64,000 bases of DNA from Chloroflexota bacterium. Lineage in GTDB: Bacteria; Chloroflexota; Anaerolineae; Aggregatilineales; Phototrophicaceae. Location of the stretch: NCBI GenBank assembly GCA_026706395.1, contig JAPOYU010000131.1:19940-83939 (forward strand), in the 5' to 3' direction. Below the pieces are notes generated by a model. The model had not been told where the DNA came from and did not search any database. It was given only the letters and a program-made list of their open reading frames with translations. Positions within the stretch are counted from its first letter, which is position 1, and each line of letters starts with the position of its first letter. The translations under genes were made by a program, and so were the position numbers. Of this stretch, positions 3,877 through 17,632 are shown one piece after another.

Positions 3877-4314
3877 CTACCCCGCGCTGGCGAAAACCAA
3901 CTCAATCGGGCAGCCGATTCCGTGACCGCCGCCTTCGATGACCGTCTCCGTCCCGGCGAAACCACCGGCCGCAGCCGCCCTCAGCACATAAGCAATCTCA
4001 TAAGGAATCTCGCGTCCATCGACAGGCATCGGTGCAATGAAAACCGCGCTGCCGACGTACTCGCCCGCTTCATTGCGCAGCAGTTCGAAGTTGTCGAAGA
4101 CCATCGCCGTCTCGTCAAGTCGCGTAATGTGGAGCCGCTCAGCTTCGCGCCCGGCGCATTCGCCGGTGTATTCGAGCGACCAATTTCCGGCGCGCGGCAA
4201 TTCGGGCTGCGTTGTCAGCGAGGTCGGGGGCGGCTGCATCGTCCCGCAGGCGGTTAGCGCCAGCAGGAACACAATCTGTGCCAACCCCACCCCCCAACCC
4301 CCTCCCCGAGGCAT
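3877..4314 (-). CDS. Small putative lipoprotein of unknown function
   Basis: A minus-strand gene of about 145 residues whose N terminus ends in a lipobox (FLLALTAC), predicting a lipid-anchored protein on the outer face of the membrane. The mature part is a short polar domain of about 120 residues with no family I recognise. The start is uncertain. The ATG at 4314 lies inside repeat copy 3, so residues PRGGGWGVG would come from the repeat; a downstream TTG or GTG just before AQIVFLL gives a more typical signal peptide. It converges with the ASRT-like gene and lies beyond the end of the Gfo/Idh gene. Coding is supported by the lipobox and open frame only. Confidence 0.6.
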   Translation of the reverse strand: MPRGGGWGVGLAQIVFLLALTACGTMQPPPTSLTTQPELPRAGNWSLEYTGECAGREAERLHITRLDETAMVFDNFELLRNEAGEYVGSAVFIAPMPVDGREIPYEIAYVLRAAAAGGFAGTETVIEGGGHGIGCPIELVFASAG

Positions 4315-4420
4315 CAGGGAGGGGGAGCGTCTACTACGTACAACTCTATCAGATCTAGTTCTTCGCGACTCCGTGCAAGTCTCCCCCCAACGCCTTGGGG
4401 GGAGATTTAGAGGGGGGTTG
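4282..4420. repeat. G-rich double-hairpin repeat, family A copy 3
   Basis: A full-length copy bounded by CCAACCCC on the left and GGGGTTG on the right. Two inner hairpins are visible: CCCCTCCC pairs with GGGAGGGG around a GAGGCATC loop, and CTCCCCCC pairs with GGGGGGAG around AACGCCTT. It overlaps the 5' end of the small lipoprotein gene and ends 20 bases before the stop of the next Gfo/Idh gene. Confidence 0.75.
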
Positions 4421-4439
4421 AAGCTGTGGGGCAGAAGGT

Positions 4440-5495
4440 TCAGAGCAGCACCTCGCGGCCTGTTTTCTGGCTTTCGTAGATGGCGTTGAGGATCTTCAAC
4501 ACTTGCAGCGACTGCTCGGCGGGGACGGGCGAAGGCGCGCCATCGGCGATCGCCTGGGCGAATTCGATGCATTCCTGCGCGTGCGGTTCAGCTACACGCG
4601 GCATCAGCTTCAGCTTGCGATTGTAAAGTTGCATGGCATCGTAATCGGTGTCGTAGACCTCGCATTTGGGCCAATGCGAGCCGCCGCCGGTGCCGTAGAG
4701 CCACATCTGCATATCTTCGCCATCAATGTCGTGGTGGAGCAGCCAGGAGATCTCGAAGACGAGGGTCGCGCCGGTTTCGAAGCGGACGAAGGCCATCGCC
4801 ATTTCTTCCACGTCCATGCCGTCGGGGATGGGCCCGAAGCGGGGCCAGCGACCGAAAGCCTTGGGATTGCTGGCGAGTTCGCGGCGGGCGACGCCGGTGA
4901 CCGAGACCGGTTCGGGATTGCCCATCATCCAGAGCGTCAAATCGAGGATGTGCACGCCAATATCAATACAGGCGCCGCCGCCGGCGTGTTTGGTGGAGAG
5001 GAAGGCGAGGCTGGTGGGGATGCCAGCGCGGCGCAGCATCCAACTGCGGGCGTGATATATATCACCGAGCGCGCCACGATCGATCTCCGCCTTCAGCGCT
5101 TTGGAGGTGTCGGCGAAGCGAAAGTGCTGCGCGGTCATGAGCAGCTTGCCGCTTTTGTCGCGGGCGTCAATCATGCGCTGGACATCGGCCGGGGTGGGCG
5201 CCAGCGGCTTCTCGCAGATGACATGCTTGCCCGCCTCCAGCGCGGCAATGCTGAGATCGGCGTGATACATATTGGGCGTGCAGACATCGATGATATCGAT
5301 ATCCGGGTCGTTGATGACGGCGGCGCTATCGGTTTCGAGGCGGCTGACATTCCATTGTTCGCCCCAGCTGTCGAGCGCTGCGGTCACGAGGTCCGCTCCA
5401 GCGATGACTTCGGCATGGGGCGATGCTTCCCAGCCCGGCATATGCGTCCGCGCTATCCCGCCGACACCGATGACACCCACCTTTAATGTACTCAT
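4440..5495 (-). CDS. Gfo/Idh/MocA family oxidoreductase
   Basis: NAD(P)-dependent sugar or inositol dehydrogenase-type enzyme, 351 residues, cytoplasmic. The Rossmann motif GVGGIA is at residues 10-15 and the family signature EKP at 95-97, followed by the alpha/beta C-terminal domain. A canonical AAGGAGG lies 10 bases before the ATG at 5495. It is the last gene of the minus-strand catabolic run and is separated from the related oxidoreductase upstream by only 16 bases. Members of this family oxidise hydroxyl groups of sugars, cyclitols or amino sugars; the substrate cannot be read from the sequence. Confidence 0.88.
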   Translation of the reverse strand: MSTLKVGVIGVGGIARTHMPGWEASPHAEVIAGADLVTAALDSWGEQWNVSRLETDSAAVINDPDIDIIDVCTPNMYHADLSIAALEAGKHVICEKPLAPTPADVQRMIDARDKSGKLLMTAQHFRFADTSKALKAEIDRGALGDIYHARSWMLRRAGIPTSLAFLSTKHAGGGACIDIGVHILDLTLWMMGNPEPVSVTGVARRELASNPKAFGRWPRFGPIPDGMDVEEMAMAFVRFETGATLVFEISWLLHHDIDGEDMQMWLYGTGGGSHWPKCEVYDTDYDAMQLYNRKLKLMPRVAEPHAQECIEFAQAIADGAPSPVPAEQSLQVLKILNAIYESQKTGREVLL

Positions 5496-5511: not shown

Positions 5512-6531
5512 TTATGATTTTTGGGGTTGAACCCAGGTATTTGTCGCCGCAGCTTGGTAAAAGGCAGCCATCACGGCGCTGCGGTCCGCCGCTTCTTTGG
5601 CCGAAATCAATGGCAGATCTTCGCCATTCAGCGCGTCCAGGAAGATATTGAAGGCGTGCGGCCCCGGCTCTGGCAAGTCCGTCCATTGGCCGCCATCAGC
5701 CCCCGAGAGATTATCCGACTTTACGAACAATTTTCCATTCTGAACATAGGCGACGCCCTCGGTGCCGCTGACCAGAACCGGCAGCGGGCTCAAGATATCA
5801 ACCCAGCCGGCCGCCAGCGTGCCGATCGCGCCGTTGGCGAAGCGCAGCATGCCCTCGCCGTATTCGTCACAGGAGTACTTGCCCAAGAGGCGATCCATCT
5901 GCGCGGTCACGCTCGCCACATCGCCCATCAGCCACATCAGGATGTCGAGAGAATGGGCGCCCAGGTCGCCAAAGCCGCCCATACCGGCACGCTGCATGTC
6001 GGTCATCCACAGCCAGCCTTCGTCATACCAGCCCTTGCCAGGATCAAACCAGCCGCCGATGGCGCCGTGATGCACATTGCAGTGGCGGACGCGCGTGATC
6101 GTACCAAGCGCGCCATCATCGATCCAACCCTTGAGCACGCGATTGAAAGGATAGCCGCGCATGAAATGGCCGATGTGGAAAAGGACGCCAGCCTCATCAA
6201 TGGCGCGCTGCATGGCGTAAGCGTCAGTTGCGGTGATGGCGAGAGGCTTTTCTACGAAGAGATGTTTGCGCGCGGCAGCAGCGCCTTCGACCAGCTCGCG
6301 GTGAAGCGCGGTCTCCGAGCAGACGATGACGGCATCAATCTCGTCATCGCGCAGGATGTCGCGGTAGTCGGCTGCGACGGGACAGCCAGCGTGCCCGGCA
6401 GCGACGCTCGCCCGCGCCGGCTGATCATCCCAGAGGGTCTTGATGGCGAATTCGTTGGGACGCTCAAGCACAGTTTTGATAAAGGATGGACTGTGGATGT
6501 GAGCGACGCCGAGGAATGCGAGTGTTTTCAT
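5512..6531 (-). CDS. Gfo/Idh/MocA family oxidoreductase, degenerate nucleotide loop
   Basis: Second family member in the operon (339 residues). The EKP motif at residues 94-96 and the C-terminal GFO_IDH_MocA domain are clear. The N-terminal loop reads FLGVAHIHSP instead of the usual GxGxxG, so cofactor binding may differ. This His-containing variant is also seen in some family members acting on sugar lactones or unusual substrates. A GGAG motif sits 7 bases upstream of the ATG. It lies 31 bases downstream of the NanE-like gene and 16 bases upstream of the next oxidoreductase, fitting one transcript. Confidence 0.85.
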   Translation of the reverse strand: MKTLAFLGVAHIHSPSFIKTVLERPNEFAIKTLWDDQPARASVAAGHAGCPVAADYRDILRDDEIDAVIVCSETALHRELVEGAAAARKHLFVEKPLAITATDAYAMQRAIDEAGVLFHIGHFMRGYPFNRVLKGWIDDGALGTITRVRHCNVHHGAIGGWFDPGKGWYDEGWLWMTDMQRAGMGGFGDLGAHSLDILMWLMGDVASVTAQMDRLLGKYSCDEYGEGMLRFANGAIGTLAAGWVDILSPLPVLVSGTEGVAYVQNGKLFVKSDNLSGADGGQWTDLPEPGPHAFNIFLDALNGEDLPLISAKEAADRSAVMAAFYQAAATNTWVQPQKS

Positions 6532-6562: not shown

Positions 6563-7255
6563 TCAGGTTACTGACACATGTTCAATAGCGCTGACGAAAC
6601 GGGCGGTGATGGTGCGCGGGCGGGTGATGGCCGAGCCCACTACGACTGACCATGCCCCAAGGTCCAGCGCTCGGCGCGCCTGCTCCGGGGTATGAACCCG
6701 GCCCTCGGCGATGACCGGAATCGGCAGGGCCTTGATCATCTGCCGCAACAGCTCAAAGTCGGGACCGTCCTGCGCCGGGCCATTTTCGGTATAGCCGGAT
6801 AGCGTTGGCGCCGCCATTGCCACGCCGAGTTCGGCGGCCGCCTGCGCTTCGTTCAGGTTCGAGACATCGGCGAAAGTCGGCAGGCGCAATTCGCCGTGGA
6901 TACGCGCCAGCAGATCCGCCAGCGGCACAGCATCCGGGCGCGGACGATTGGTGCAATCGAGGGCGATGATATCAGCGCCGGCTCCCGCGATTGCAGCGGC
7001 GGCGGCAAATGTCGGTGTGATGTAGACGCCGCTATTGCCCTGCTTGTACAAGCCGATCACGGGCAGATTGACCGCTTCTTTGATGGCGCGGATATCAGCC
7101 GGGCTATTGGCGCGTATGGCCACAGCGCCGCCGATCTTCGCCGCAGTTGCCATCTTCGCCATGATCGCTGCGCCGTGCAGCGGTTCGTCTTCCAGCGCTT
7201 GGCAGGAGACGATCAGCTTGCCTTTGACGGCGGCGAGGAAGGCGTCGGCCTTCAT
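6563..7255 (-). CDS. nanE: Putative N-acetylmannosamine-6-phosphate 2-epimerase
   Basis: TIM-barrel epimerase of the NanE family (230 residues), known to convert ManNAc-6-P to GlcNAc-6-P in sialic acid and ManNAc catabolism. The N terminus [17 protein letters not shown] and the C-terminal [11 protein letters not shown] and [10 protein letters not shown] stretches are typical. The ATG overlaps the TGA of the upstream ROK kinase gene in an ATGA junction, implying translational coupling; AAGGTGG precedes it. A kinase next to NanE suggests ManNAc to ManNAc-6-P to GlcNAc-6-P. No neuraminate lyase or GlcNAc-6-P deacetylase is present in the window, so the true substrate could be another amino sugar. 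Confidence 0.85.
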
Positions 7256-8148
7256 ACGTCCACCTTATGCCAGGCCAGCATGGCGGCGCCGAGCAGCACC
7301 GCCTCCACACCAAGCGCGGCCGGCAGCAAGGGCGTCCCGCGCAGCAGCGGCGGCAGGCTCGCGCGGAACGCGGCTGCAAAGGCATCACACCACAACGCGC
7401 CAATCTGCGGAACGCCCCCGCCCACTATTACAGCTTCCGGATTGATTGACGTGACATAGCCCGCCAGGATCTGGCCGAATCGTCGCGCCTTTTCCGCGAT
7501 GATCATACGCGCCAGATCATCGCCGGCGGCCGCGCGTCGGCTGATCTCATTAAGCGGCGGGCCTTGATTAGCGCCGGTCGCTCTGTGATAAGCGCGCTCA
7601 ATCGCGGGACCGGAACAGTACTGGTCGAGGATCAGGGGCTGATCGCCTTCCCAATCGACGACCAGATAGCCGATCTCGCCAGCGCTGTAATGCGCGCCGT
7701 GCCAGACCGCGCCCTCCGCAACTATAGCGCCGCCGATGCCCGTGCCCACTGTGACGCAGAGCAGCGACCTGTATGCAGCGCCCGCGCCGACGGTCGCCTC
7801 GCCGAAGGCCATCGCCCGCACATCATTTTCCGCGCAAATCGGCAAGCCGCCGATATCGAGGGCGGCTAGTGCTGTGCCGGTCCAGCCCGGGATGTTGTCG
7901 TTGGCGTGAATCACGGTGGCGCTTGCCGTATCCACCATGCCGGCACAGCCAATGCCGATGCCGAGCACGGGCGCATCCGCCATGGCAATCAGCTGCTCGG
8001 CCAGCGAACGCGCGGCGGACAAAATCTCGGGCGGAGAGGGCGCGGTGGCGACTTGCCGGGTCCGCACGATTGCGCCATTGCGCGTCACCAAGCCAGCCAG
8101 CGTTTTACTGGCGCCGATGTCCAGGCCGATGACCAGCGATGAGCCCAT
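7252..8148 (-). CDS. ROK family sugar kinase without the zinc motif
   Basis: ASKHA-fold kinase of 298 residues. The phosphate loop GLDIGASKT is at the N terminus, and GTGIGGAIV and SAGEIG in the middle are ROK hallmarks. The usual zinc site is lost: the EIGH histidine is Tyr (EIGY) and the CxCGxxGCxE cluster is replaced by QYCSGPAIE. The start is taken as the ATG at 8148 ([12 protein letters not shown]); the frame is open further upstream, but those residues are unlike the family. It is coupled to the NanE-like gene, so it probably phosphorylates ManNAc or a related amino sugar; glucokinase activity is an alternative. Confidence 0.83.
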
Positions 8149-8255
8149 GGTCACAGCCGCTCGTCGGCAGCGATGTGGGCTTCCGTGCTCAGGCAAAACA
8201 TCATACGCCCTCGGCCGCCGTAAATGTCGGTTTGATAGAAAGAAAAGCGGTCGCG

Positions 8256-9047
8256 CTAAGTCAGCTTCAAGAGCTCTTCCTGACCGCGGCGCTCGCGATA
8301 GCCGTGCACGATCAGACCGGGACGGCCGTTGCTTTGCCCGGCGACTTGATCGTTATGCGGATCGCGGAAGCCCATGCGCACCATGCGACGCGGCTCATTC
8401 GTCTGGTTGATGTAGGAGCCGTGTACGGTGTAGATGTGGAACACCACAACATCACCGCGCTTGGCCGGCACGGGCACAGTGTCTTCCAGCTTGTAATCAT
8501 TCGTGTTGAGGTGCGGCGAGCATGATGTTCCATCGGGATTCTTCAGGATATGCGGCAGTTTGCCCATTTTGTGCGAACCGGCCAGAAAGCGGATCTCGCC
8601 GTTCTCGTGGAAGGTATCATCCAGGTGAACCAGGGTATCGAGAAAGCGTCCATCGGCATGTTCGTAGAAAGGCGAATCCTGGTGCATGGGGAAAGGATGC
8701 CCGGTCTGCGGCGGTTTGATGTGCATGGTTGTATGATGCAATTCGACGCTGGAATCCAGCAATTGCGACAGGCATTTGCCCAGTTTGGGATGGGTGACCG
8801 CGCGCATCCAGGCATCGGAGTACAGGTGCAGGTCGTGCATGGCGGTCAACTTGACTTGCTTTTCCACTTCCTCGTCCAGGTATACATCGCGCCAGGGTCC
8901 CGACCAACCCGGACTTGTGATAGACCAATCTTCGATCAGGCGGTCGAGGCTATCCGACAGCGCGGTGATCTCCTCTTCGTTAAAGACCTGCGGAATGCGC
9001 AGAAAGCCGTTTTCGTGAAAGAATTCGATCTGTTCTTTGCTGAGCAT
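8256..9047 (-). CDS. Phytanoyl-CoA dioxygenase (PhyH) family protein
   Basis: Fe(II)/2-oxoglutarate-dependent oxygenase fold, 263 residues. The iron triad is readable as H122, D124 (MHQDSPFY) and H209 (TVHGS), and R220 (NEPRRM) fits the 2-oxoglutarate-binding Arg. The ATG at 9047 is supported by AAGGAG seven bases upstream; the frame extends further upstream but lacks such a site. It sits inside the sugar operon, 107 bases before the ROK kinase start and 145 bases after the ABC ATPase stop. Such proteins commonly hydroxylate small metabolites; the substrate is unknown. Confidence 0.85.
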   Translation of the reverse strand: MLSKEQIEFFHENGFLRIPQVFNEEEITALSDSLDRLIEDWSITSPGWSGPWRDVYLDEEVEKQVKLTAMHDLHLYSDAWMRAVTHPKLGKCLSQLLDSSVELHHTTMHIKPPQTGHPFPMHQDSPFYEHADGRFLDTLVHLDDTFHENGEIRFLAGSHKMGKLPHILKNPDGTSCSPHLNTNDYKLEDTVPVPAKRGDVVVFHIYTVHGSYINQTNEPRRMVRMGFRDPHNDQVAGQSNGRPGLIVHGYRERRGQEELLKLT

Positions 9048-9192
9048 TTGGGTCTCCTTTTTTTTGCTGACAGCAAATGGCAAATGGATGAGAAGAGGCG
9101 AATTGGCGCGCAAGCAAAAGTCGCCCCTTCTTGATAATCCGAGAAGAGGCAGAGCGCGAGAATCTTACGGACTAATCTGCCAAGTTGCGATC

Positions 9193-11226
9193 TCAGGCAT
9201 CAGAAATTGTAATGGTGTAAGCGTCGACGCCGCGGCCGCGCTCATCCGCGCCCAGCACGAGCTCATAGGTCCCGGTCGCGCCGAAAGTGAGTGTGCCGCT
9301 GTTGCTGCGGCGGGAACGATCGAAGGCAAAGACGATGCTGCCGTCCGGCGCGTAGATGGTGGCAAGCGGGGCAAAGAAGCCGGTGCCGCTCAGGCCGCGC
9401 CCGCCGGTGATGAGTTTGATATCCACCGTCGTCCCGGCGACGCCTTCAATGCTGTAGCTATGGCGGTCGTCCACACTTTGGATTTCATCGCCGGTATCTT
9501 CGCCCAAGACGATGGCGCCCTTAGCGACCGCGCCCTCGCGCTCGACAACGAATGCCGGCGGCGGCAGCGTCGGCATGGGGGTCGGCTCCGGCATGTCCCC
9601 ATCAATAGTGATGGTGTAGGCGTCGACGCCGCGGCCGCGCTCATCCGCGCCGATGACAATCTGATACGCGCCATCTGCAGCGAAGGTTAGCTCGCCACGA
9701 TTGCTGCGGCGCGCGCGGTCAAAGGCGAAGACGATTTCCCCGTCAGGGTTGTAGATGGTGGCCAGCGGCGCATAGAAGCCGGTGCCGCTCAAACCGCGAC
9801 CGCCAGTTATCAGCTTCAGCTCTACGGTCGCGCCTTCAAAGCCGGCGAAAGTATAGCTGTGCCGATCGTCCGCATTTTCGATCTCGCCGACGGTGTCCAG
9901 GCCCCAGGTGATGGATCCCTTGTCGACCGCCCCCGCCGGCTCGACAACGAATGCGGGAACAATCACTTGCGATTCTGGCGTGGCGGTGGGTGGCGGGGTC
10001 GCTGTAGGCGGCTCAGTGGGCGGTATGGCCGTCGCCGTAACCACCACTTGCACCTCTTCGACCACCGTTTCGACGATGGTCTCCGGTTCGCGCGTTAGAG
10101 AAAGCAACGCGCCCGCGATAAAAGCGACCACGACCAGGACAGCAGCTACAAGGCGTTCACGCTTGCGATTAGCTATCGATGCGACGGCCGCTTCGGTGAT
10201 GGGCTGGTTCACGAGCATCGGCGGCTCAATCGGCGCGATCTCATTTTCTTCGTAGAGATAGCAAGCCGCTTCGTGTTTTGGCTTCTCCATCTTGAACAGG
10301 GGCGGCTGCGCTTCCAGGCATTTATCCATGCGATGGGGGCAGCGCGGATAGTAGCGACAGCCGATGGCGGCGGCGGTGCGCATCTCTTCTTCGCTGGGCA
10401 AGCTGATATTGACATCCCACTTGTCCGTCGGATCGGGAACCGGCACCGAGTCGATCAATAGCTGCACGTACGGGTGCTGGGGCGCGTCGATCACGTCCAT
10501 CGCCGAGCCGCGTTCCGCCGTCGTGCCTTGATACAGCATGTAGATCTGATCGCCGATTTGGTAGGCGGTGCTCAAGTCATGTGTGATGTAAAGGAAGGAG
10601 ATATTGTGTTCATCGCGCAGGCGCAGCATCGCATCGAGAATTGAAGCGCGTAGGGACGCGTCCACCATCGATACCGGCTCATCCGCCACGATCAGCCGCG
10701 GCTTGATCATGTAGGCGCGGGCCATCATGATGCGCTGGCGCTGCCCGCCGCTGAGTTGATGCGGGTACTTGCGCAAGACATCCTCGCCATAAAGGCCGAC
10801 CACATTCAAGCCGGCTTCCACCATATCCCGATATTCGCTCTGGTTATCGGAGAGGCTGAAATGCTTGTTGACAAGATCGAAGACATGGTCGATGCGGTAG
10901 AAGGGATTGTAGACGCCGAAAGGATCCTGAAAGACAGCTTGCACATTGCGGCGGTAGGCTTTCAACTGCTCGCTGGTCATATCGGTGATGTCTTCGCCAT
11001 CAAAGATGATCTTGCCGGAAGTCAATTTGATGAAGCCGAGGACGAGGTTCGCCAGCGTGGTTTTCCCGCTGCCGCTCTCACCGGCGATCGTGGTGATCGT
11101 CGCCGGCGATTCGTCGATGGTCATATTAAAATTATCGAGGGCGACGACAGATTTTTTATCACCGAGGAAGCCGCCGCTGGAATATACTTTGGTGGCGTCA
11201 CGGATTTGCAATAGTGGCGAAGGCAT
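9193..11226 (-). CDS. OppF-type ABC ATPase fused to a TM helix and two tandem extracytoplasmic domains
   Basis: A 677-residue fusion. Residues 1-330 are a full oligopeptide/oligosaccharide importer ATPase: Walker A GESGSGKTT (49-57), signature LSGGQRQR (158-165), Walker B LIVADEP (178-184) and the Cys-rich tail (C290, C296, C303, C322). Then come basic residues RKRER (354-358), one hydrophobic helix (359-378), a Pro/Thr-rich linker (395-420) and two copies of a roughly 117-residue beta domain (425-541 and 557-675) sharing DRHSY, LITGGRGLSGTGF and GADERGRGVDAYTI. The domain resembles pre-peptidase C-terminal domains. Charge bias predicts the tail outside the cell. GGAGAGGAG lies upstream of the ATG, which is 29 bases inside the preceding ATPase gene. 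I know of no standard Opp ATPase with this tail. Confidence 0.88.
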   Translation of the reverse strand: MPSPLLQIRDATKVYSSGGFLGDKKSVVALDNFNMTIDESPATITTIAGESGSGKTTLANLVLGFIKLTSGKIIFDGEDITDMTSEQLKAYRRNVQAVFQDPFGVYNPFYRIDHVFDLVNKHFSLSDNQSEYRDMVEAGLNVVGLYGEDVLRKYPHQLSGGQRQRIMMARAYMIKPRLIVADEPVSMVDASLRASILDAMLRLRDEHNISFLYITHDLSTAYQIGDQIYMLYQGTTAERGSAMDVIDAPQHPYVQLLIDSVPVPDPTDKWDVNISLPSEEEMRTAAAIGCRYYPRCPHRMDKCLEAQPPLFKMEKPKHEAACYLYEENEIAPIEPPMLVNQPITEAAVASIANRKRERLVAAVLVVVAFIAGALLSLTREPETIVETVVEEVQVVVTATAIPPTEPPTATPPPTATPESQVIVPAFVVEPAGAVDKGSITWGLDTVGEIENADDRHSYTFAGFEGATVELKLITGGRGLSGTGFYAPLATIYNPDGEIVFAFDRARRSNRGELTFAADGAYQIVIGADERGRGVDAYTITIDGDMPEPTPMPTLPPPAFVVEREGAVAKGAIVLGEDTGDEIQSVDDRHSYSIEGVAGTTVDIKLITGGRGLSGTGFFAPLATIYAPDGSIVFAFDRSRRSNSGTLTFGATGTYELVLGADERGRGVDAYTITISDA

Positions 11227-12235
11227 CGGCTCTCCTCTCCTCAAATTGCTCGTCAAAGAGGTGACAAGCGACCTCGTGTTTTTCTTCGACTTGTAGAGGC
11301 TGCGGTTCGACCTCGGCGCAATGGTCCCAGGCAAAGGGACAGCGCAGCCGGAAGATGCAGCCGGAAGGAGGGTTGCGGGGATCGTGAGTGATGCCCTCGG
11401 TGATCTTTAGCGGTTTGCGTTCCTTGATCGATGGAATCGAGTCGATGAGCAGTTGGGTGTAGGGGTGCAAAGGGTTGGCGTAGACATTTTCGACCGGGGC
11501 GATTTCCACCATTTTGCCGGCGTACATCACAGCGATGCGGTCGACGATCTGCGCCAGCAAGCCCATGTCGTGGCCGATGACGATTAGCGATACGCCGATC
11601 TCATCTTTCACTTTGATCAAGGTCTGCGCCACGATGCGCTGCACGACGACATCAAGCGCGCTGGTCGCCTCGTCGGCGATGACCACCGTTGGATGGAGGG
11701 CCACGCCCATGGCGATGCAAACGCGCTGCTTCATGCCGCCGCTGAGTTCATGCGGATACATATTGTAGATGCGGTTAGGCAGACCGACATTCTGGAACAA
11801 TTCAAAAATGCGCTCCCGCATGGCTTCTTTGTCGCGCTGTTTACCCTCGTGTGATTCGATGACATCAATGATCTGATCTTTGACGCGCATGGTCGGGTTG
11901 AGCGAATTCATCGCCCCTTGCGGGATGAGCGACAAGCCCGTCCAGCGGAACTTGCGCAATTCTTCGTCCGTCAGGTTCAGCACTTCGGTGCCGTCGACTT
12001 CGATGCTGCCGTGCACGATGTAGCCGGGTGGCTGCACCAATTGTAGGATGCCATAAGCAGTGGTCGATTTGCCGCAGCCGGATTCGCCGACCAAGCCCAG
12101 GGTTTCGCCTTCGTAGAGATTGAAGCTGATATCGCTGACGGCGATGACATCGCCCTGTGGCGTGGCGTAGTGGATGCGCAGATTATCGACTTTGAGGACG
12201 ACGCGCTCGCTGCCGTTTTCCATTTGCTTTTCCAT
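11198..12235 (-). CDS. OppD-type ABC transporter ATP-binding protein
   Basis: Cytoplasmic ATPase of the importer (345 residues). Walker [10 protein letters not shown] is at residues 50-58, the signature LSGGMKQR at 164-171 and Walker B IADEATSALD follows. The C-terminal oligopeptide-transporter extension has the Cys pattern CIFRLRCPFAWDHC. Its end overlaps the start of the fused OppF-type gene by 29 bases, and it starts 19 bases after the stop of the permease gene. A second ATG four codons in (MENGSE) is a possible alternative start. It pairs with the fusion ATPase to drive uptake. Confidence 0.92.
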   Translation of the reverse strand: MEKQMENGSERVVLKVDNLRIHYATPQGDVIAVSDISFNLYEGETLGLVGESGCGKSTTAYGILQLVQPPGYIVHGSIEVDGTEVLNLTDEELRKFRWTGLSLIPQGAMNSLNPTMRVKDQIIDVIESHEGKQRDKEAMRERIFELFQNVGLPNRIYNMYPHELSGGMKQRVCIAMGVALHPTVVIADEATSALDVVVQRIVAQTLIKVKDEIGVSLIVIGHDMGLLAQIVDRIAVMYAGKMVEIAPVENVYANPLHPYTQLLIDSIPSIKERKPLKITEGITHDPRNPPSGCIFRLRCPFAWDHCAEVEPQPLQVEEKHEVACHLFDEQFEERRADAFATIANP

Positions 12236-12254: not shown

Positions 12255-13193
12255 CTAACTGGCTTTGCGCAAGCGCGGATTGGCGATCTCGTCCAGGCCC
12301 AGGTTGATCAGCAGCAGAGCTACGAATACCACAGACAGAGTCACTGTCGGGATGCCCCACCACCACCACATATTGCGGAAGAGAGCGCCCGCTTCTATGG
12401 AAAAGAAAATCGCGACGCCGAGGGAAGGGATGCGCTGTGGACCGAAGCCCAGCACCTCCAGGCCGACCGCCGAGATGATGGCGCCTTGCATATTGCCGAT
12501 ATAACTCGCCCCAAGGTAAGGCAGCAGATTGGGCATGATTTCCTTGAACATGATATCGCGCACGGGCACGCCGGAAAGCCGGGCCATCTGCACGTAGCCG
12601 CTTTCGCGCATGCTGAGCACCTGGGCGCGGATATAGCGCGTCGGCGTCGCCCACGAGAATAATGAGATCAGCAAAGCCATCGTCAGCAGGTCCACCCGCC
12701 CCAAAACAGCCTGTATAACGATGAGCACCAGAAGCGACGGGATGGTGATGGTGATATCGACGGCTAATCGAATCACATCGTCGAACAAGCCGCCGAGAAA
12801 TCCCGCCATGAAACCCAAAAATATGCCAACGAGCATGCCGACCGTGGCCGCGACCACGCCCACGAAAATGGTTCGTGGCGTGCCGACGATCCAAAGCGCC
12901 AGCATGTCACGCCCGCTGTTCTCCGTGCCAAGAGGATGCTCCGGGACGCCTTCTTGCCCCCGCCAATTGGTAAAGCCGACGGGAGGCAGGTTAAGCGGCG
13001 CCCGGGCCGACAGCGCCATGTCCGTATCCCAAAACTGATAGCCGAGAAATATCAAAAAGAACAGAAATCCCAGAATGCCGGCGCCAGTGAGAAACTTCCA
13101 ATTGATCCAGGGATTGTCAAAACGATTGAGGACGCCCGCCTTCCTGGTGCCGCCGGCCACGGGAGCGTCTTTGGCTTTGCTGTCTTCGGCCAC
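12255..13193 (-). CDS. ABC transporter permease, OppC-like
   Basis: Inner-membrane permease (312 residues) with an N-terminal OppC segment, a periplasmic loop and the BPD_transp_1 core. The EAA-type cytoplasmic loop is visible as ARLSGVPVRDIMFKEIMPNL. The GTG at 13193 is chosen because GGAAGGGAG lies just upstream; an in-frame ATG at 13268 would translate through a G-rich repeat and is less likely. It is the partner of the OppB-like permease encoded immediately upstream. Confidence 0.88.
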   Translation of the reverse strand: MAEDSKAKDAPVAGGTRKAGVLNRFDNPWINWKFLTGAGILGFLFFLIFLGYQFWDTDMALSARAPLNLPPVGFTNWRGQEGVPEHPLGTENSGRDMLALWIVGTPRTIFVGVVAATVGMLVGIFLGFMAGFLGGLFDDVIRLAVDITITIPSLLVLIVIQAVLGRVDLLTMALLISLFSWATPTRYIRAQVLSMRESGYVQMARLSGVPVRDIMFKEIMPNLLPYLGASYIGNMQGAIISAVGLEVLGFGPQRIPSLGVAIFFSIEAGALFRNMWWWWGIPTVTLSVVFVALLLINLGLDEIANPRLRKAS

Positions 13194-13195
13194 GT

Positions 13196-13300
13196 CTATC
13201 TCCCTTCCAGGCTGATAAGCGGTGTTCCCCCCAGCGGGGGGGCGTGGAGAGGGGAGTGTCTTTTGCATTTGAGCATGCGCTATCTCCCTTCCAGGCTGAT
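13196..13300. repeat. 21-bp direct repeats flanking a short family A element
   Basis: An identical 21-base segment, beginning CTATCTCCC and ending CAGGCTGAT, occurs at 13196-13216 and at 13280-13300. The 63 bases between contain a short G-rich hairpin (CCCCCC/GGGGGG with trailing GGAGAGGGGA at 13222-13261). The right copy encodes the end of the OppB-like permease including its stop codon; the left copy supplies the ribosome-binding site of the OppC-like gene. The layout is what a target duplication around an inserted hairpin element would leave. Confidence 0.7.
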
Positions 13301-14290
13301 GCGCGGGTCAATGAGCGGGTAGCTCAAGTCGATGATCAACACCGCCAGCGCGCTGGTCGTGATCAAGATGAAAGATGTGCCTTGAATCAAGCCGAAGTCT
13401 TGCTCGCGCAGGGCGTTGACAATAAGCGTGCCCATGCCGTTGTAGTTGAAAATAACTTCGACCAGCACCACGCCGTTGACGAGCGTGCCGATGGAGACCG
13501 CCAGCGCCGTCATCTGCGGCAAAATGGCATTGCGGATCATGTAGCGATACAAGACGTAGAATGGCTTCAAGCCCTTGGCCTGCGCCAGGATCATATAATC
13601 TTCGCCTTCGATCGTGACCATCATGCCGCGCATGCCCAGCGCCCAATAGCCGAAGGTGACCAGCACAATCGCCATCGCCGGCAAGGTGCCATGATGAATG
13701 ACGTTGGCGATGAATTCCAAGGTCAAGGCCGGCGTCTTACCGAAGCCGTAAGAATAGGTCTGCGGGAACCACCTTAGCAAGAACGCAAACGTATAGCTTA
13801 GCAGCAAACCGGCCAGCAAAGGAGGTATCGAAGTGAACATCATCGACATGGGGATCAACACTTTGATCAATCTGGGCGTCCTCGCCCAGGCGAGCAGCGC
13901 GCCGCAGAGATTGCCGACGGTGAAGAATATGAAGGTCGCGACGCCGACCAGACCGATCGTCCAGGGCAGCGCCCGCCCCACCAACTCGGTCACGGTTGAT
14001 GGAAATCGAGCCATCGAGTAGCCCAGATCTCCCCCCACCAGTCCAGTCAGGAAACGCAAGTACTGAATGTAAACCGGGTCGTTTAAGCCGAAGCGTTCCT
14101 TCCAGCCCTCAATGATCTTATCCGAGTTTTCCACGAAACCAGCTTGATATGACAGGCGCGCCACCATCGCTGCGATAGGATCGCCGGGCGCCAGGCGCGG
14201 GATGATGAAGATCAAGGTCGCGGCCACCCAAAGCGTGAGGAAAAAGACCAATAGACGGCGGACCAGATAGTTTAAGGATATTCCTCCCAT
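13280..14290 (-). CDS. ABC transporter permease, OppB-like
   Basis: First permease of the importer (336 residues) with the OppB N terminus (NYLVRRLLVFFLTLWVAATLIF, written here in two parts by family: a YLVRR stretch followed by a hydrophobic helix) and the cytoplasmic loop QAKGLKPFYVLYRYMIRNA that docks on the ATPase. The ATG at 14290 is preceded by GAAGGG. It is 175 bases downstream of the binding-protein gene and is followed by the OppC-like gene, the usual SBP-OppB-OppC-OppD-OppF order. Confidence 0.92.
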   Translation of the reverse strand: MGGISLNYLVRRLLVFFLTLWVAATLIFIIPRLAPGDPIAAMVARLSYQAGFVENSDKIIEGWKERFGLNDPVYIQYLRFLTGLVGGDLGYSMARFPSTVTELVGRALPWTIGLVGVATFIFFTVGNLCGALLAWARTPRLIKVLIPMSMMFTSIPPLLAGLLLSYTFAFLLRWFPQTYSYGFGKTPALTLEFIANVIHHGTLPAMAIVLVTFGYWALGMRGMMVTIEGEDYMILAQAKGLKPFYVLYRYMIRNAILPQMTALAVSIGTLVNGVVLVEVIFNYNGMGTLIVNALREQDFGLIQGTSFILITTSALAVLIIDLSYPLIDPRISLEGR

Positions 14291-14465: not shown

Positions 14466-16235
14466 TTACATGCCGTCGCCGGCTTTGTGGATCTCCTGGA
14501 AGAATTGATGCGTCGATTGCCACCAGGTAGCCGGGTGGTTCCAGTTATTCTCGGAAGTCGGCCAGCCGTCCCAGTAGGTGTTGTTGAAGGGGATCAGCTT
14601 GGTCGCCTGGTTCAGCGGAATGAAGGGCAGGTCTTCGTAGAGATAGCCATAGGCTTCAACCACCAGATCAATGGCATCCGGATGACCCAGCGGCAACGAA
14701 CCCAGTCGACCAACCAACTCGCTGTAAGCTTCGTTGTTCGGTCCGTCCCAACGTACGTGGTTGCTGCCCGTGGAACGATCGCCAACCGGCACCCACCAGC
14801 GGGCGGTGTAGCGGTCGAGCGAAGCCCAAGGCTCGTTGATCGAACCGCAGGCGTCCCAATCGGTGGTGGATTCGTAGTTGCCGAAGCGCTTGTTGTCGCC
14901 CCAGGTCGCGCCGGCGATGACCGCGGCGGAAGCCTCGATGCCGAAGCTCTGCAACTGCTCAACCAGGTTGGTGGTGATGCGGCGCTTCTCGATGAAGCCC
15001 TCATGAACCTGGATTGCCAGGCTAAGCGCGTTGCCGTCCATATCGACCCAGCGGCCGTCGTCATTGCGCGAGTAGCCGTTGTTCTCCAGCAGCGCGGCAG
15101 CGGCGTCAAGGTCGGCCTCCGTATTGAAGGTCATGCCGGCATCTTCAATCGCATCGATGTAGGGGAACATACCGCCATATTCGACGTACAGAGTACGCGA
15201 GGGGATGGTAACGCCTTCGTAAGCGATGTCGATGACTTGCTGGCGGCTGATGGCGTGGTTGATCGCCCAGCGCATTTCGGCATTATCCCAAGGCTCAACT
15301 TGCGTCTGGAAGGACAGTTGCCGCGGGCAGGGATCCAGCCAAACAAATGGCATGCCCTCGACCCAGGCGAAGATGTTGTCGTTCGCCGCTTGCATCGCCT
15401 CAAAGGCGCCCAGCGTGACGTCCATGATGCTGTCCAGTTCGTTGGCGACAGCCATGGTCGTGCGGATCTGATCGTTACCGGTCACGACCCAGACGGCGCG
15501 CTGCGGTTCAGGCAGGTTGAAGACGCCCGTTTTGGCGCCCCACCAATCGTCATTGCGATCGTAGGTCCAAGAGGTCTCGTTGGCGGCGGTCAATACGTAG
15601 GGACCGGTGCCGAGCGGGTAACCGGCTTCGAGATCAAAGTACTTCCAGGTAAAGGGATCGACATCGGGGCTGTCCCAGACGTGCTCGGGCAGGATACTGA
15701 TGCCGCCCCAGATGCGGACCGAGAAGAAGTCCAACTGGAAGCGCGGGTTGGGCTGCGTCAGATTGAATTGAACCGTCAGGTCGTCAACCTTCTCGACGCT
15801 TTCGATCCAGGTCTGTACGTTGCCGGCGTAGCTGAGCGAGCTGGTCTCGTCATTCAGCAGCAGGTTGATCGTCCAGACAACATCGTCGGCATTGAAGGCC
15901 TCGCCGTCCGCCCATTCCGCGCCGTCGCGCAGGTTCAGCATCCAGACGTCAAGCGCGTCGTTGGCTTCCATGCTCTCCGCCAGCCAGGGCATGATCTCGC
16001 CAGTTTCGTAGTTGAGGATGAAGAGCGGTTCCATTACGGCCTGATGCAAACCGTAGGGACGGCGGCTGTCGGGCAACAGATAGTTCATCTGGTCGAAGTT
16101 GGCGACGGCGCCCGCAGGACCGTCAACGTCGAATACGACGGTATCTTCACGCGCGACGTCCTGGGCAACAGCGGTGAAGCTGATGGCCGCGAAGACGATG
16201 ACGAGAAGAACGAGAAGAAGTGCTTTTGCTTTCAT
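14466..16235 (-). CDS. Extracellular solute-binding protein, family 5 (Opp-type)
   Basis: Periplasmic or membrane-tethered ligand receptor of 589 residues. Residues 1-24 form a signal peptide (MKAKALLLVLLVIVF... ending AVAQ). The SBP_bac_5 fold includes the family stretches WADGEAFNADDVVWT and GTGPYVL. GTAGGAG precedes the ATG. It heads a complete ABC importer operon that also encodes a kinase, an epimerase and dehydrogenases for a sugar, so the ligand is more likely an oligosaccharide or amino sugar than a peptide. The adjacent AraR-like regulator probably controls it. Confidence 0.9.
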   Translation of the reverse strand: MKAKALLLVLLVIVFAAISFTAVAQDVAREDTVVFDVDGPAGAVANFDQMNYLLPDSRRPYGLHQAVMEPLFILNYETGEIMPWLAESMEANDALDVWMLNLRDGAEWADGEAFNADDVVWTINLLLNDETSSLSYAGNVQTWIESVEKVDDLTVQFNLTQPNPRFQLDFFSVRIWGGISILPEHVWDSPDVDPFTWKYFDLEAGYPLGTGPYVLTAANETSWTYDRNDDWWGAKTGVFNLPEPQRAVWVVTGNDQIRTTMAVANELDSIMDVTLGAFEAMQAANDNIFAWVEGMPFVWLDPCPRQLSFQTQVEPWDNAEMRWAINHAISRQQVIDIAYEGVTIPSRTLYVEYGGMFPYIDAIEDAGMTFNTEADLDAAAALLENNGYSRNDDGRWVDMDGNALSLAIQVHEGFIEKRRITTNLVEQLQSFGIEASAAVIAGATWGDNKRFGNYESTTDWDACGSINEPWASLDRYTARWWVPVGDRSTGSNHVRWDGPNNEAYSELVGRLGSLPLGHPDAIDLVVEAYGYLYEDLPFIPLNQATKLIPFNNTYWDGWPTSENNWNHPATWWQSTHQFFQEIHKAGDGM

Positions 16236-16390: not shown

Positions 16391-17575
16391 TCAGGTCGAT
16401 ACAATTCTGCCGGCGTCCACGAGTGGCGCCGCCGTTGACGCGCGTATACGCAGCCGGGTTGGCACGGTACAAGTTCGGGCCGGCGAATCATCGCCTTCCA
16501 AGCGATCAAGCAAGTGCTCTGCCGCGGACTTGCCCAGTTCATAGGCATCTTGACAACTCGTAGTCAGGGGTACGCCAATGTACGACGCCATACAGATATC
16601 GTCGAAGCCGACAACTGAGACATCGGCTGGTACGCCATAACCCATGTTGCGCAAGGCATTTATCGTGATTATGGCGAGAATGTCATTGATGCAGACAATA
16701 GCCGACGGCATTGGACCTTTGGCGTCGGTTAAGCTTTCAAGCTGTTGAATGATCTGTCGGCTCTGTGAACCAACCAGGCTGTAGATATCCGTCTCGTGAA
16801 ATTCGTGGCGCTTGGGCGGGCTGATCTTCCACGGTTCATGGACCAAGATGCCATGCTCTTTTAGCGCGGCCAAATAGCCGCGCCGCCGTTCGTTGACCGG
16901 ATGCAAGTCATCAAAATTGGGCATAAGTTGCACGATATGCCGGTGCCCCAACTCGATCAGATGGCAAACTAGATTGTAGGAGCCATCGAAGTTATCGCTC
17001 GCGACGTAATCCGCTCGGATACCCTCGATGGGACGATCCATGAACACGACTGGAATCTCTCTACGTTCGTATTCCCCAAGAATGGAGACCGTTTCTTTGC
17101 TTGGCTCGGCATTTGCCCAAAGCATCAGCCCGGCTACCTCGTCGTCGAGCAGCTGTTGAAGAATCCGCGCCTCGTCATCCCGATCCCGCGAATTGCTGAA
17201 TATCACTTGATAGCCGGCTGAACGAAGTTCTGTCTGGGCGCTATTGAGAATATTCGTGTGGATCTCGTTGTGGAAACTGCAGGTTAGGTATCCGATGGTG
17301 CGGTTCGCCGCGTGGTCCTGCGGCTGGTAAACGACAAATGTACCTCGGCCGGCGGTACGTTTGATTAGTCCTTCTACCTCAATCCGCTGCAAAGCGATGC
17401 GCACCGTCGTACGGCTGATATCCAAATGGCGGGCAAGCTGCATCTCGGTCGGAATGCGCTCGCCATTCTGCCAGCGCCCGGAGACGATTAGACGGCGCAG
17501 TTGATTGTGCAACTGGACATGTAGGGAGATATAACTGTTGTGATCCAGCCGGATCTTCTCAAGTTTGTCGCGCAT
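16391..17575 (-). CDS. AraR-like transcriptional regulator (GntR wHTH + LacI-type sensor)
   Basis: A 394-residue hybrid. Residues 14-83 are a GntR winged helix-turn-helix (ISLHVQLHNQL, IPTEMQLARHL, ISRTTVR, GRGTFV) and residues 93-385 are a LacI/periplasmic-binding sensor domain (NRTIGYL, FMDRP, VVGFDD). This is the architecture of AraR, an effector-released repressor of sugar genes. The ATG at 17575 is chosen; an upstream in-frame TTG at 17632 lies inside the predicted operator. It stands directly upstream of, and in the same direction as, the SBP-led operon, so that operon is its likely target. The effector sugar is not known. Confidence 0.88.
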   Translation of the reverse strand: MRDKLEKIRLDHNSYISLHVQLHNQLRRLIVSGRWQNGERIPTEMQLARHLDISRTTVRIALQRIEVEGLIKRTAGRGTFVVYQPQDHAANRTIGYLTCSFHNEIHTNILNSAQTELRSAGYQVIFSNSRDRDDEARILQQLLDDEVAGLMLWANAEPSKETVSILGEYERREIPVVFMDRPIEGIRADYVASDNFDGSYNLVCHLIELGHRHIVQLMPNFDDLHPVNERRRGYLAALKEHGILVHEPWKISPPKRHEFHETDIYSLVGSQSRQIIQQLESLTDAKGPMPSAIVCINDILAIITINALRNMGYGVPADVSVVGFDDICMASYIGVPLTTSCQDAYELGKSAAEHLLDRLEGDDSPARTCTVPTRLRIRASTAAPLVDAGRIVST

Positions 17576-17610
17576 AAAGACCGCATCGGCGAGCAAAAAA
17601 CACTTTAGAT

Positions 17611-17632
17611 TTGTACATAAATGTATGTACAA
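17611..17632. promoter_or_regulatory. Predicted AraR-type operator
   Basis: A perfect 8-base inverted repeat, TTGTACAT and ATGTACAA, with a 6-base spacer, 35 bases upstream of the regulator start. Known AraR/GntR operators have the same TTGTAC/GTACAA arms. Position suggests autoregulation. Confidence 0.65.

Follow-up and report, generated by a model that had tools for sequence, protein, structure and literature searches.

In the window, the 64,000-nucleotide stretch of Chloroflexota DNA that was analysed here, the OppF-type ATPase of one ABC importer does not end where such proteins usually end, but continues through a predicted membrane helix and a Pro/Thr-rich linker into two beta domains of PPC fold. 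We regard it as practically settled that this architecture is genuine, conserved and under selection. A single open frame on the minus strand (9193-11226, ATG at 11226, stop at 9193) encodes the 677 residues, and the original prediction of an OppF-type ATPase running in one frame through RKRER, a helix and a Pro/Thr linker into a pair of beta domains is confirmed, with the helix ending at residue 377.

The ATPase (NBD) part comprises residues 1-330 (10237..11226, on the minus strand like all window genes and gene parts given below) and carries the Pfam domains ABC_tran at 32-185 (95.1 bits) and oligo_HPY at 238-303 (59.6 bits), both above cut-off. Its catalytic residues, those of the Walker A, Q-loop, signature, Walker B and H-loop motifs, are invariant in 34 aligned relatives, as are the cysteines C290, C296, C303 and C322. 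Both domains, all catalytic motifs and the gene order SBP-permease-permease-OppD-OppF (SBP, substrate-binding protein) are shared with OppF/DppF proteins such as E. coli DppF of DppABCDF, in which Cys293, 299, 306 and 323 hold a [4Fe-4S] cluster (PMC12136057); the four window cysteines are spaced alike and form a putative cluster site. Known OppF and DppF proteins end soon after the last cysteine, whereas here the oligo_HPY/cysteine region is followed by a helix and 300 more residues; across the family the additions are a helix, a linker and either two or three beta domains. The window protein is therefore an OppF-type ATPase of new architecture and not an ordinary OppF. It passed none of the curated NCBIfam models, the best being PRK11308 with 231.8 bits against a cut-off of 408, and no report of an OppF-type ATPase with a helix and outside domains was found in the open-access papers searched.

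The predicted membrane helix (residues 359-377, 10096..10152) has a mean Kyte-Doolittle value of 2.9 and is directly preceded by RKRER at 354-358, and lysine and arginine are commoner before the helix than after it in 112 of 121 proteins. A helix at 344-377 is present in both AF2 models, that of the tail and that of the full-length protein. It is followed by the Pro/Thr-rich linker (residues 378-425, 9952..10095), recognised from its sequence and from a pLDDT below 50 over tail residues 47-88 in the tail model. In the full-length model, with a mean pLDDT of 51.3, the helix and the beta strands reappear, but a nearly uniform alignment over the ATPase makes that part unusable.

Copy 1 of the beta domain occupies residues 426-541 (9604..9951) and copy 2 residues 559-677 (9196..9552), with a second Pro/Thr linker, again evident from the sequence, between them (residues 542-558, 9553..9603). 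A PPC-like double domain facing outside had been proposed, and hydropathy, the K+R asymmetry and the AF2 fold support such a domain, with a predicted position outside. The tail model shows a confident PPC/collagen-binding beta-sandwich fold, and a profile also supports copy 2; the Pfam search followed only in part, matching PF04151 (PPC) in copy 2 alone and with 22.3 bits, below the gathering cut-off of 25.9. In precomputed annotation, PF04151 is assigned to many relatives. The likeness to PPC and collagen-binding domains (ColH CBD3 3jqw, ColG 1nqd, B. anthracis PPC 5sv5) is at the level of the fold, with 9-21% identity, and those domains sit on secreted proteases, whereas the window copies sit on an ABC ATPase.

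The operon reads, on the minus strand, from a GntR-LacI-type regulator (16391..17632; Pfam GntR and Peripla_BP_3) through the SBP (14466..16235; SBP_bac_5, with a signal-peptide-like N-terminus and no lipobox), permease 1 (13280..14290; BPD_transp_1 with BPD_transp_1_N), permease 2 (12255..13268; BPD_transp_1) and the OppD-type partner ATPase, which has no tail (11198..12235; Pfam and ORF coordinates), to the fusion gene. Next downstream is a PhyH-type dioxygenase (8256..9113), followed by a ROK-family sugar kinase (7252..8196; NCBIfam/Pfam searches), a NanE-type N-acetylmannosamine-6-phosphate 2-epimerase (6563..7255; PRK01130 with 284 bits against a cut-off of 189, and Pfam NanE) and two Gfo/Idh/MocA oxidoreductases (5512..6531 and 4440..5495). 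The end of the OppD gene overlaps the start of the fusion gene by 29 nt, which fits translational coupling. As the nearest solved relatives of the SBP are mannoside- and chitin-oligosaccharide-binding proteins, and because ROK kinase, NanE and Gfo/Idh genes are neighbours, the imported ligand is likely an amino sugar or another glycan. Elsewhere in the window there are four more Opp-type ATPases, of 339-357 aa and without a tail; two further complete SBP-permease-permease-ATPase-ATPase sets, at about 20-43 kb, contain such ordinary ATPases (339-357 aa) and provide a built-in control. A window frame at 3877-4572 has no Pfam match, and its LTAC motif resembles the start of a small lipoprotein lying within a longer ORF, the true start being probably further in.

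A protein search limited to chains of 372-1185 aa scored 7996 candidates and gave 7761 matches; the best 120 of these were taken together with the query and four more. Among these 125 ATPase-type proteins, 71 have three copies and the helix and 49 two copies and the helix; in two others, with two copies, the helix falls outside the searched interval, two have one copy and one has none. Genome contigs yielded 54 loci. The tail is present in all 33 loci with an NBD identity of at least 84% (L018 is cut by the contig end), and on contigs that reach far enough the neighbour genes are those of the window; ROK/NanE or more are not visible in L004, L006, L007, L017, L020 and L033. Of the 18 loci at 46-70% NBD identity, all 17 readable ones end at 318-343 aa (L049 is cut off), and L052-L054 were left out as too distant. 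Closely related transporters at 46-70% NBD identity thus do without the tail. Among the matches listed, the long fused frame occurs in 32 of 61 genomes (G001 and 60 relatives), twice in G011, and the remaining 29 show only ordinary paralogues. The original prediction had left room for a misassembly. Such an error, or a missed stop, would have joined an ordinary OppF to a secreted protein next to it. As the same join is found with continuous frames in 33 of 33 close loci on other MAG contigs, and in those 32 genomes, this explanation is so unlikely as to be negligible. The fusion is also not confined to one genome, its absence from all related genomes having been named as what would refute the original prediction. 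One locus, L037, lies on a contig titled Bacteroidetes, has a Chloroflexota-like regulator-importer operon with an OppF 68-69% identical to that of the window, and is perhaps mis-binned.

The jk18x bins, which account for nine of the 33 tailed loci, belong to MAGs of Ircinia sponges (PMC9531527); other bins are probably also from sponges, judged by their names. A study of sponge Chloroflexi describes Anaerolineae and Caldilineae as having many importers for sugars, and many sialidases (PMC6306507). This origin, together with the clostridial collagenase collagen-binding domains among the closest solved folds, could suggest that the tail is an adhesin-like surface arm that ties the importer or the cell to a matrix such as host collagen, glycans or the cell's own wall. 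A secreted protein also points in this direction: P0126, a 483-aa trypsin-like protease with LysM, carries one tail-domain copy (77% identical across 37% of the tail query) and is likely a source or recipient of tail-domain shuffling. However, the PPC fold is uninformative on the ligand, since PliG, GOLD and p24 domains match the tail nearly as well, and solved chains, searched with the tail profile, gave no sequence match up to E 1. L020 (UBA6055) is also tailed, and an adhesin would be odd on the motor of an importer instead of on a surface protein, so that we think this role is unlikely.

In six genomes the tail profile matches only the fusion locus. Among 396 genomes of the class, 11 have the fusion and 9 have weaker tail matches at 10 places; none of these 10 is an ATPase, and they are secreted or membrane-anchored PPC-type proteins, the frames being judged by eye. 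At most three candidates were scored per genome, so that PPC proteins may be missed in this count. No plasmid record matched the tail. Secreted proteins of this class of Chloroflexota often contain PPC domains with Pro/Thr linkers, so that raw material for a fusion is plentiful, and the tail might be a shuffled domain that has no specific use and is kept as harmless. This is highly unlikely in view of the tail in all 33 close loci, the invariant residues across divergent copies and the dN/dS values of the copies. In 12 pairs, dN/dS lies at 0.01-0.05 in the ATPase, at 0.07-0.19 in the copies and at 0.08-0.45 in helix and linker, although conversion can disturb such values. The beta-domain copies are under purifying selection, and they keep motifs such as TGGxGLSG and RRS.

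The two copies start 133 aa, or 399 nt, apart. They had been described as near-identical over long stretches of DNA, and as a duplication that is recent or kept uniform by conversion. The example given for this, 9211-9250 with 9612-9650, is two bases out of register (13/39 identical), whereas in register, with 9610-9649, 38 of 40 nt agree, and an exact run of 32 nt is shared (9221-9252 = 9620-9651). The near-identity therefore applies locally and was overstated, because over the whole unit 264/363 nt and 86/121 aa are identical and, where the residue is the same, 50 of 86 codons are identical, near the 42.5 that codon usage alone predicts. A recent duplication in the window genome is rejected on this near-chance synonymous identity and on the grouping of the copies: in the tree of the copies, 87 in number and drawn from 33 proteins, window copy 1 stands beside copy 1 of L001 (99/88) and window copy 2 groups with copy 2 of L001 and L003 (99/87), the deeper support being moderate. 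In three-copy proteins the mean identity within a protein (79%) exceeds that at the same position between proteins (71%), and in two-copy proteins the values are 77.4% and 76.9%. Copies group by protein, wholly or with two of three copies, in L008, L020, L021, L023, L027, L009, L014, L030 and L031. Exact runs of 126-219 nt between copies occur in L009, L012, L023, L024 and L031, and the tail copies of L021:4235-5275 are identical in 342 of 342 nt, which could reflect a very recent conversion or re-duplication, or an assembly effect; over the same stretch the window copies share 250/342 nt and no exact run longer than 32. Conversion is thus seen in sister genomes and amounts in the window to at most that one run. 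On these groupings and identities, turnover and conversion shape the tail family, yet the duplication in the window is old.

As to the working of the tail, we propose that in an Anaerolineae-type clade of Chloroflexota the OppF-type ATPase of this one importer acquired the helix, the linker and its PPC-fold domains, of which there are two or three. Judging from the sequence, the ATPase would stay in the cytoplasm with OppD beneath the two permeases, about 37 residues after the last Fe-S-type cysteine would lead up to the membrane, and the helix would cross it N-in/C-out, placing the beta domains outside on a flexible stalk beside the permease mouth. Much less surely, these domains may act as an extracytoplasmic arm that keeps the non-lipidated SBP, or its glycan ligand, near the permease and thereby raises the local supply to this importer. 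The step from the architecture to such an outside arm has, in our estimate, a probability of about one in three. A tentative elaboration would be that the membrane-spanning ATPase recognises its own SBP or a host-matrix glycan through its concertedly evolving PPC modules, so that the motor is mechanically linked to capture of the substrate and could sense occupancy from the outside.

The arm is supported by a tail that diverges with the SBP and the permeases and not with OppD, Gfo2, ROK and NanE. The SBPs without a lipobox and the likely sugar ligand also count in its favour. Tails fall into type A (GFYAP-type loop, including the window), type B (NLNSPYG-type) and a divergent one in L020. With L010, L011 and L024 kept apart, the mean tail distance is 0.60 between A and B and 0.33 within A; the corresponding values are 0.295 and 0.116 for the SBP, 0.231 and 0.089 for permease 1 and 0.187 and 0.092 for permease 2, whereas OppD (0.090 and 0.086), the NBD (0.073 and 0.062) and PhyH (0.135 and 0.121) hardly jump. 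Given NBD, OppD and PhyH, the partial correlation with the tail is 0.59 for the SBP, 0.64 for permease 1, 0.71 for permease 2 and 0.53 for the regulator, and 0.20 for Gfo1, 0.12 for Gfo2, -0.29 for ROK and -0.34 for NanE; OppD reaches 0.08 (given NBD and PhyH) and PhyH 0.20 (given NBD and OppD). Tail and SBP correlate within type A (0.62, 12 loci), where OppD also correlates with the tail (0.40), and not within type B (-0.05, 12 loci, L010, L011 and L024 excluded).

The coupling is weakened by the small number of events on which it rests, by the values within type B and for OppD within type A, by the correlation of the regulator, which is cytoplasmic, and by L010, L011 and L024, which have a B-type tail beside an A-like SBP and in which importer parts seem to have been exchanged between lineages. 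Mantel tests gave p 0.0005 for the tail with SBP and permeases, related loci being treated as free to permute; for that reason a count on the tree is fairer. On a tree built from seven cytoplasmic proteins of 32 loci there are two changes of tail type and four of SBP type; of the 2 independent pairs, 1.5 show the SBP shifting the same way as the tail, for which a sign test gives p 0.5. Taken with the distances, this is a hint that the tail may belong functionally with the outward-facing parts of the importer.

Alternatively, the helix could simply pin the ATPase to the membrane and aid assembly or stability of the importer, with the PPC domains as a folded cap against slipping or as a mild regulator. 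The linker varies in type and length, while the helix and the basic cluster on its N-terminal side are retained; helix and linker have a looser dN/dS than the copies, and the number of copies is two or three and changes at least twice on the tree of cytoplasmic operon proteins, all of which would suit an anchor. For that purpose, however, a helix alone would suffice, whereas the beta domains keep their motifs and are repeated and homogenised, and the one protein that reaches only to the helix, P0128, is a single 410-aa prediction ending in an apparent frame change. We therefore consider the anchor possible but somewhat doubtful.

We also considered the tail as a replacement for a lost lipid anchor of the SBP, and found no support for this. 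A lipobox is present in none of the 29 readable SBP N-termini of tailed operons (28 loci and the window) and in none of the 13 readable ones of tail-less relatives; the N-termini of L014 and L050 are unreadable, and the single flag for the pattern, in L049, lies upstream of the Met. Two other Opp-type SBPs of the window equally have no lipobox and stand beside tail-less ATPases, and therefore a soluble SBP needs no such tail, which speaks against the arm as well.

Additional domains on importers have precedents. ATPases of the NrtC/CmpC type carry an extra C-terminal, cytoplasmic domain that is related to a solute-binding protein, and CmpC chains of 665-690 aa were among our matches; they share with the window protein an extra domain past the NBD, but are not known to have a membrane helix or a PPC domain. 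In GlnPQ and OpuA the binding domains are fused to the permease, itself a membrane protein, and this raises their local concentration at the translocator; in the window protein the motor subunit is the fusion partner. To our knowledge, the motor subunit of known importers sees the outside solely via the permease. If true, a motor subunit that has an outside domain of its own would offer a new means of coupling ATP use to events at the cell surface, and would be a ready natural case on which to test NBD signalling. Relatives with and without the tail contrast clearly, which makes the purpose of the tail testable. As the clade includes symbionts of Ircinia sponges (PMC9531527), the arm may bear on how symbionts harvest sugars of the host or the matrix.
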